A stretch of DNA of 31,419 nucleotides from a virus, in IMG/VR virus record IMGVR_UViG_3300009788_000236, positions 1-31,419 of that record; one strand, 5' to 3'. The notes below the pieces were generated by a model. It did no database searches. It saw nothing but the letters and a program-made list of their open reading frames with translations, and was not told where the DNA came from. The position numbers were made by a program, and so were the translations under genes. Numbering within the stretch: position 1 is the first letter of the stretch; each line of letters begins with the position of its first letter. This document shows positions 9,270 to 9,986 of this stretch, piece after piece.

Positions 9270-9460
9270 GAGACTGTATAACAGAGTGAGTTAGGTAACT
9301 GCCGTAGTATGACTGCCAACTGTTAGTGTGATGCTAAACGAAAGATTTGCGGAGCCGAGCTGATTCAGCGTAGACGCTATGAAACAAATACTCGATAAAT
9401 TGGCTAGATAATTAAATCCCGATTGGTCATTGGGCTAACTCACTCTAGCTATACAGTCTC
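9270..9460 (+). ncRNA. Candidate structured RNA closed by a 22-bp helix
   Basis: GAGACTGTATA (9270-9280) pairs with TATACAGTCTC (9450-9460), and GAGTGAGTTAG (9284-9294) pairs with CTAACTCACTC (9435-9445). Only a 3x4 internal loop separates them, so the ends form a 22-bp helix. Inside are further hairpins: AGCG-TAGA-CGCT (extended by TCA/TGA) near 9365-9385, and CCCGAT-TGGTC-ATTGGG at about 9418-9433. The region has no credible reading frame and lies between two genes of the same strand. The ribosome site for the next gene follows directly, so it could be a cis-regulator or a processed RNA. No known family is recognised. Confidence 0.55.
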
Positions 9461-9479
9461 AACAACAAGGAATAACAAA

Positions 9480-9986
9480 TTGAATCAGCCGAAAAAGTGG
9501 GATTATTATGCGTTCTCTCAATATTATTGGGTTAATCACCACGGCTTCTTGATGTGGTGGGGTGTTGATGAATACGTCAGGTCAACTAAAACGATTGCAG
9601 AGGTAGAAAAAGAAGTTAAAAAGATGGCAAAGGAGGCTTTAAAAAGCGGCACTAAAGCTGATCGAGTACCAGTAAAGCGCAAAAGTAAGATCAACGATGA
9701 TAATATGGCATGGGTCATGGCTATGCTGAATTCGGGCAAGAAGTACAAAGATATCGCAGCAAAATTTGGCGTATCAATCGGAAAAATTAGCAGCATTGCC
9801 AAGGAAAATGGTATTAAGCGAGGCATAAAAGAAATACCTACTGGGGATATGACTGAGATTATCAAAATGTTAACCAATGGAGTAATCAGAAAAAAAGTAG
9901 CGGAAAAATTCGGACTGTCAACTACTCGCGTTAACAATATAGCGAAAAAGAATGGCATCAAAAGCAGAAAGCAGAAGCAGGAGTAA
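9480..9986 (+). CDS. Tandem helix-turn-helix protein (168 aa), TTG start
   Basis: Two similar Hin/resolvase-type helix-turn-helix units are visible. The first is KKYKDIAAKFGVSIGKISSI near residues 84-103; the second is VIRKKVAEKFGLSTTRVNNI near 138-157. Each is followed by AKENGIK or AKKNGIK. The N-terminal part is aromatic (DYYAFSQYYWVNHHGFLMWW). This is probably a sequence-specific DNA-binding regulator or recombination accessory protein; no catalytic domain is seen. TTG 9480 is chosen because AAGGA lies 8 nt upstream and earlier frame positions fall inside the RNA candidate. Confidence 0.72.
   Translation: MNQPKKWDYYAFSQYYWVNHHGFLMWWGVDEYVRSTKTIAEVEKEVKKMAKEALKSGTKADRVPVKRKSKINDDNMAWVMAMLNSGKKYKDIAAKFGVSIGKISSIAKENGIKRGIKEIPTGDMTEIIKMLTNGVIRKKVAEKFGLSTTRVNNIAKKNGIKSRKQKQE

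Follow-up and report, generated by a model that had tools for sequence, protein, structure and literature searches.

Bacterial Y RNAs of the YrlA type, which are bound by Ro60/Rsr, combine a long stem formed by their two ends with a tRNA-like module. In phages, tRNA clusters can also give rise to stable RNAs that are not tRNAs; T4 provided examples decades ago, still without a function. RNA C of T4 (rnaC, species 1) was detected by Northern analysis as a late RNA (PMC9697503), and its function is unknown (PMC3014915, PMC9697503). Here we describe an element at positions 9270-9460 of the IMG/VR virus contig IMGVR_UViG_3300009788_000236, the whole of which, at 31,419 bases, forms the window of our analysis. 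The element is almost certainly a member of a real and new family of phage RNAs, the existence of which is strongly supported and for which the current RNA family database has no entry. In this family, a terminal helix of some 25 bp, conserved and covarying, closes a variable core, so that the RNA is sealed at its two ends.

In the window copy, the 5' arm of the closing helix (9270-9294, + strand) is made up of an outer half GAGACTGTATA, the bases ACA and an inner half GAGTGAGTTAG, and pairs with a 3' arm (9435-9460, + strand) composed of an inner half CTAACTCACTC, the bases TAGC and an outer half TATACAGTCTC. The resulting 22 bp, arranged as 11 bp, a 3x4 internal loop and 11 bp, correspond exactly to the pairing put forward in a preliminary description based on the sequence alone, and constitute the top inverted repeat of the window, with a score of 40 against 28 for the runner-up.

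No DNA match to the element was found among 50,697 cultured phage records, and the exonuclease and terminase relatives of the window phage contained no primary-sequence relatives of the window copy, so a search by structure was needed. Terminase and early exonuclease relatives were therefore scanned for long end-paired units, which yielded the loci L029, L009, L102, L124 (two units in tandem) and L136, with ends near AGTCTGTATATATGAGTGAGTTAG...CTAGCTCATTCTTATATACAGATT. Further copies came from two pattern scans of IMG/VR, which were partly guided by the window copy's own ends. In the first scan, the partner arm reached a pairing score of at least 41 in 14 hits and of at most 25 in all others; in the second, clear units mostly scored 35-51 and some chance matches scored up to 32. 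L261, which scored 30.6 in the second scan, was taken as a diverged copy and afterwards confirmed by the covariance model described below. This gave 27 copies on 26 contigs before the model search and, after it, a final tally of 30 copies on 27 phage contigs, the family thus occurring in unrelated aquatic phages.

Comparison of these copies shows that the helix is maintained at the level of base pairing. When the arms are aligned, 92.4% of the cells are paired, against 25-42% when one arm is slid along the other, and two-sided changes occur in 11 pairs, amounting to 28 cells against 9.5 in shuffles (0/500). The full-length alignment gives the same picture, with 96.3% of cells paired against 26-46% when slid and two-sided changes in 10 pairs. 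The ends of the copies vary (TAGTCTG, AAGCCTG, AAGCGTACATA and GAGACTG, for example) along with their partners, and even the TGTATA conserved in the 5' arm changes jointly with its 3' partner. The second copy in record G022, with the arms AAGCGTACATA / TATGTACGCTT, amounts to a compensated swap of most of the outer helix. Across the arms, G.U pairs outnumber A.C mismatches by 71 to 9, with G.U found in about ten different pairs, a count to be read with the relatedness of the sequences in mind, as the cells are not independent. Taken together, the compensatory changes and the excess of G.U over A.C indicate selection on RNA pairing, with the RNA encoded on the + strand of the window. The preliminary description had proposed covariation in related phages as a check and uncompensated loss of pairing as what would speak against an RNA; the homologues keep the helix through compensatory changes, and a model from which the window copy was held out recovers it.

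That model, R2, was built from 25 full-length copies with the window copy and L261 left out, and replaced an earlier one, R1, which consisted of the arms with the core excised and, being unable to bridge the core, missed the very copies it was made from. Run on the whole window with filters off, R2 returns 9270-9460 with exact ends at 47.6 bits (E 1.6e-8, the E-values of the covariance tool being rough), and the next match has 12 bits. It also recovers the held-out L261 at 42.4 bits, and over 97 loci (1.07 Mb) gives no match besides these two. We consider this held-out test strong, but not blind, because the scans that supplied the copies were partly guided by the window. Over 43 records, R2 further identified three unseen copies: one in G046, a second copy in G010 and the second copy in G022. 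The terminase of the G046 phage is 74% identical to that of the window phage (L014).

The preliminary description recognised no RNA family here, and neither does Rfam: the window element matches nothing at the gathering score, and up to E 10 returns just CRISPR-repeat noise (E 7.9). A search of ten sibling loci matched ordinary tRNA genes alone. Likewise, copies of the element are not called as tRNA or tmRNA by ARAGORN or by the Rfam RF00005 and tmRNA models, the best sibling being L009 at 17.5 bits (E 0.37). Searches of cultured phages with the arms around a masked core, with several cores and with the flanks retrieved just tRNA genes or chance matches, and a pattern search of bacterial genomes gave 6 matches, all without a partner arm. 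R2 found no copy in 398 sampled Pseudomonadota genomes, a sample that includes no positive control genome, and in the literature, among open-licence papers, we found no description of this family.

Within the closing helix, the cores range from about 40 to 145 nt in length and form small families (L168/L009, L136/L264/L260, L102/L227, L220/L029 and L245/G046). The closing helices of L245 and G046 differ although the core inside them is almost identical, and the related cores of L168 and L009 lie in unlike genomic surroundings, patterns that indicate that cores and frames recombine. Many of the RNAs have the inner half of the helix at the place of a tRNA acceptor stem, with a T-arm on its 3' side and sometimes a D-arm. 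About a third of the copies carry a T-arm: its hairpin was counted in 8 of 27, where shuffled cores gave 0.22, and the T-loop motif is more frequent on the RNA (+) strand (13 occurrences) than on the opposite one (2). The T-arm abuts the inner arm at tRNA spacing in L009, L168, L263 and L155; D-arm hairpins are present as well in L168 and L245 (GCGCATTGGTAGCGC and AGCTTAATTGGTAAAGC), and the fold of L155 is a cloverleaf. A further hairpin, with the loop TGGGGTTTTGCAGAATA on varying stems, recurs both in cores and free-standing nearby (L271:648-683, L245:595-629 and the cores of L029 and L220).

The core of the window copy spans 9295-9434 (+ strand) and, when compared by blastn with all loci, matches only itself above chance. 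The 191-nt element has a folding z of -4.0 on the + strand and -6.2 on the - strand, with none of 200 shuffles equally stable, so that the - strand folds slightly better than the +; the comparison of homologues nonetheless assigns the RNA to the + strand. Of the several inner hairpins that had been envisaged, the non-random fold is borne out, but the individual hairpins are weakly determined from the window sequence alone, and the centroid retains few of them. The core closes with a hairpin at the T-arm position, CCCGA-TTGGTCA-TTGGG (9418-9434, + strand; 5 bp and the 7-nt loop UUGGUCA), which abuts the inner, acceptor-like arm directly. No open reading frame of at least 50 amino acids lies within 9270-9460, consistent with the earlier view that the element holds no credible protein frame. 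Beyond the helix, the 3' flank AACAACAAGGAATAACAAA-TTG (9461-9482, + strand) contains the ribosome-binding site and start of a gene for a tandem helix-turn-helix (HTH) protein (9480-9986, + strand; HTH_7 family match). Its TTG at 9480 lies 19 nt past the helix end, in line with the roughly 20 bp estimated before. Following the 3' arm, AACAA is present in the window flank and likewise behind copies in other phages. No relatives of the HTH gene were found in IMG/VR.

The genomic settings of the copies fall into several kinds. The tRNA genes for His (L136), Leu (L227), Tyr (L264) and Trp (L247) are each followed, 18-20 nt on, by a copy, and these four copies are preceded by a common CCTTTCAAG spacer. 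Eight others, among them the window copy, end 13-26 nt ahead of a start codon, directly upstream of the ribosome-binding site, and five of these eight head early operons with differing recombination proteins: RecT, an exonuclease and SSB in L029 (read from the sequence), an Erf-like protein and an exonuclease in L009, Sak and Gam in L220, Erf and an exonuclease in L263, and an exonuclease-family protein in L255. Further copies precede endonuclease-like, tail or head genes. The terminases of the carriers are 28-71% identical to that of the window phage, or undetectable. L043 represents an empty site, with flanks as in L195 and L136 but without the element, and R2 finds none in that record, which marks the element as a discrete unit. 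The preliminary description had offered a cis-acting leader, a stable phage noncoding RNA or a processed RNA as possible roles; a regulator that serves the gene at 9480 alone is made less likely by the finding of copies both behind tRNA genes and ahead of several unrelated early genes.

From this arrangement, the copies look like parts of polycistronic early or tRNA transcripts. The most plausible reading, if a tentative one, is that 9270-9460 encodes, on the + strand, a processed, stable, tRNA-mimicking and trans-acting RNA. This RNA would be cut from the polycistronic transcript by a double-strand-specific RNase at the long helix, for example by host RNase III, for which 22-25 bp are a sufficient length. 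Excision would leave a stable, uncharged RNA that mimics a tRNA, as seems to be true of T4 RNA C, and that may act in trans on host factors recognising tRNA bodies. Its most likely role would then be that of a decoy or inhibitor of tRNA nucleases, tRNA-based defence or processing enzymes. Several observations weigh against such a role. The window copy does not match the Rfam tRNA model even at E 10, and the loop of its T-arm-position hairpin is not UUCRANY, leaving it without a canonical T-loop; most copies, indeed, lack a clear T-arm. The cores have no sequence in common, which makes a shared trans function uncertain, and the length of the helix is the only feature that points to RNase III. 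R2 gives no match in the T4 tRNA region (L282), so that the link to RNA C is one of architecture only. Finally, the metagenome projects that yielded the carrier phages are limited in number.

The main rival, which we regard as possible but clearly less probable than a trans-acting RNA, is a purely cis-acting role, in which the sealed helix is a processing, mRNA-stabilising or translation-setting leader of early operons, or a processing signal after tRNA genes, and the core is a spacer with no function in trans. This would account for the close spacing of eight copies, the window copy included, to early-gene starts, for the several copies standing first in recombination operons whose annealing proteins differ, and for a helix that is conserved while the cores vary freely. 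It sits less well with the many copies in long intergenic loci of noncoding RNA and tRNA genes, where a coding start is absent from the next 200-600 nt, or with those preceding structural or endonuclease genes, and a mere spacer would have no need of strand-specific tRNA-like cores conserved between copies. Unlikely, in our view, is that the element is a non-autonomous mobile DNA, related to miniature inverted-repeat transposable elements or linked to homing endonucleases, with the inverted repeats as recombinase sites and the tRNA-like content as captured debris. In its favour are a site at which the element is either present or precisely absent, TA at the junctions of some copies, tandem copies, endonuclease-type genes adjoining several copies and a scatter over phages with unrelated terminases. 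Yet the G.U bias and the compensatory changes show that pairing of one RNA strand has been selected, the ends vary with their partners in a manner unlike fixed transposase sites, and the cores are more variable than the ends. There is also no consistent target duplication, the window copy having ATA on its left and AAC on its right.

Two other explanations are much less probable. The promoter-proximal place of copies in early operons and the conserved TGTATA in the 5' arm could indicate a -10 box, or a nascent RNA that acts in antitermination like the HK022 put site, which we consider very improbable: upstream -35 matches average 2.2 of 6 positions against 2.5 in shuffles, and we rejected a promoter in the 5' arm for want of this signal; TGTATA covaries with its 3' partner, so that pairing rather than a box is kept; and several copies occupy structural-gene or post-tRNA positions. 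That the family is a phage counterpart of bacterial Y RNA, bound by Ro60/TROVE, seems scarcely credible, despite the same general layout and a carrier contig, L238 (G024), in which a gene for a TROVE/Ro60 protein of 431 amino acids (L238:5100-6395, - strand) shares the strand of the element. TROVE is found in 1 of 26 carrier records against 1 of 50 non-carriers, and not in the window record; relatives of the protein lie in eight other viral contigs, these TROVE phage loci being without the element; and there is no match to YrlA or Y_RNA. We dropped this explanation, as TROVE is no commoner in carriers than in controls. Likenesses to T-box, attC, retron and pRNA elements were set aside since the partner features are lacking.

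A broader and more doubtful proposal is that phages exchange such RNAs as a new class of cassettes, in which the helix, covarying and conserved in sequence, would serve as a portable excision frame for different tRNA-mimicking decoy cores directed against host defences that target tRNAs. Such cassettes, passed between unrelated phages that share hosts, might also explain stable RNAs like T4 RNA C. If the cores do turn out to be decoys for tRNAs, phage counter-defence would gain an RNA-based arm, and the family illustrates that a structured RNA can pass as a discrete heritable unit across unrelated phages. Because the roughly 30 natural variants share a removable helix and have cores that can be exchanged, and because they include tRNA-like modules and come with an empty site, core, helix and context are separately testable.

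The carrier loci and their relatives hold additional structured units. A second conserved structured RNA with a terminal T-run lies just upstream of tRNA genes or of the element (L136:850-965, L124:1640-1745, L227:495-590 and L043:120-220), and looks like an independently terminated small RNA. Adjoining the element in L271 is a second sealed unit (L271:696-937) with a different closing helix of about 42 bp and a T-loop-like motif; similar large units at L028:2721-2981 and L190:5355-5480 point to a wider superfamily. Another terminase relative contains a very long nested inverted repeat (L033:583-914, span 332), noncoding and with GGGTAGG repeats. In the cultured Vibrio phage K172 (OZ195673), a short end-paired unit (L235:2977-3055) directly follows four tRNA genes and has GACCCGCAAGCC...TAAATCGATAAGAGTCA in common with the L197 core (E 0.03). 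The unit also stands behind the tRNA genes of some 190 related phages of Vibrio; R2 does not match it, and it is a possible cultured model. About 700 bp from the tRNA cluster of K172 lies a gene with the same annotation as a PAPS-reductase family gene of the window phage (1512-2558, - strand).

Several known RNAs can be set beside the family. HEARO (the IscB omega RNA, RF02033), which belongs to mobile DNA, is a structured RNA like the element but constitutes a separate family, and the element gives no HEARO match. One HEARO copy (105.8 bits) does lie between two copies of the element, at L285:815-1043 (- strand) of contig IMGVR_UViG_3300023222_000094, where it begins right after AAGCCTGTATAT, as if inserted in the 5' arm of a third copy. 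With tRNA and tmRNA the family shares D-arm and T-arm hairpins, an acceptor-like helix and, in L155, the cloverleaf, but it has no CCA end, the acceptor helix is stretched to about 25 bp, and the anticodon arm is missing or replaced. It differs from YrlA in having no Rfam match and no co-occurrence with Ro60 above chance, and in its place in phage early operons and tRNA loci. Judged by architecture, the nearest known RNA is T4 RNA C. The end helix of RNA C is short and interrupted, with no conserved 25-bp helix, and RNA C occupies a single site in T4 rather than being a scattered, exchangeable unit. Nevertheless, it too is phage-encoded, adjoins tRNA genes and, at 139 nt, is not a tRNA; and, as folded here, its ends pair, it carries inserted domains, and a perfect T-arm, CCGGG-UUCGAAU-CCCGG, abuts the 3' strand of its end helix, much as the T-arms of some members abut the inner half of theirs.
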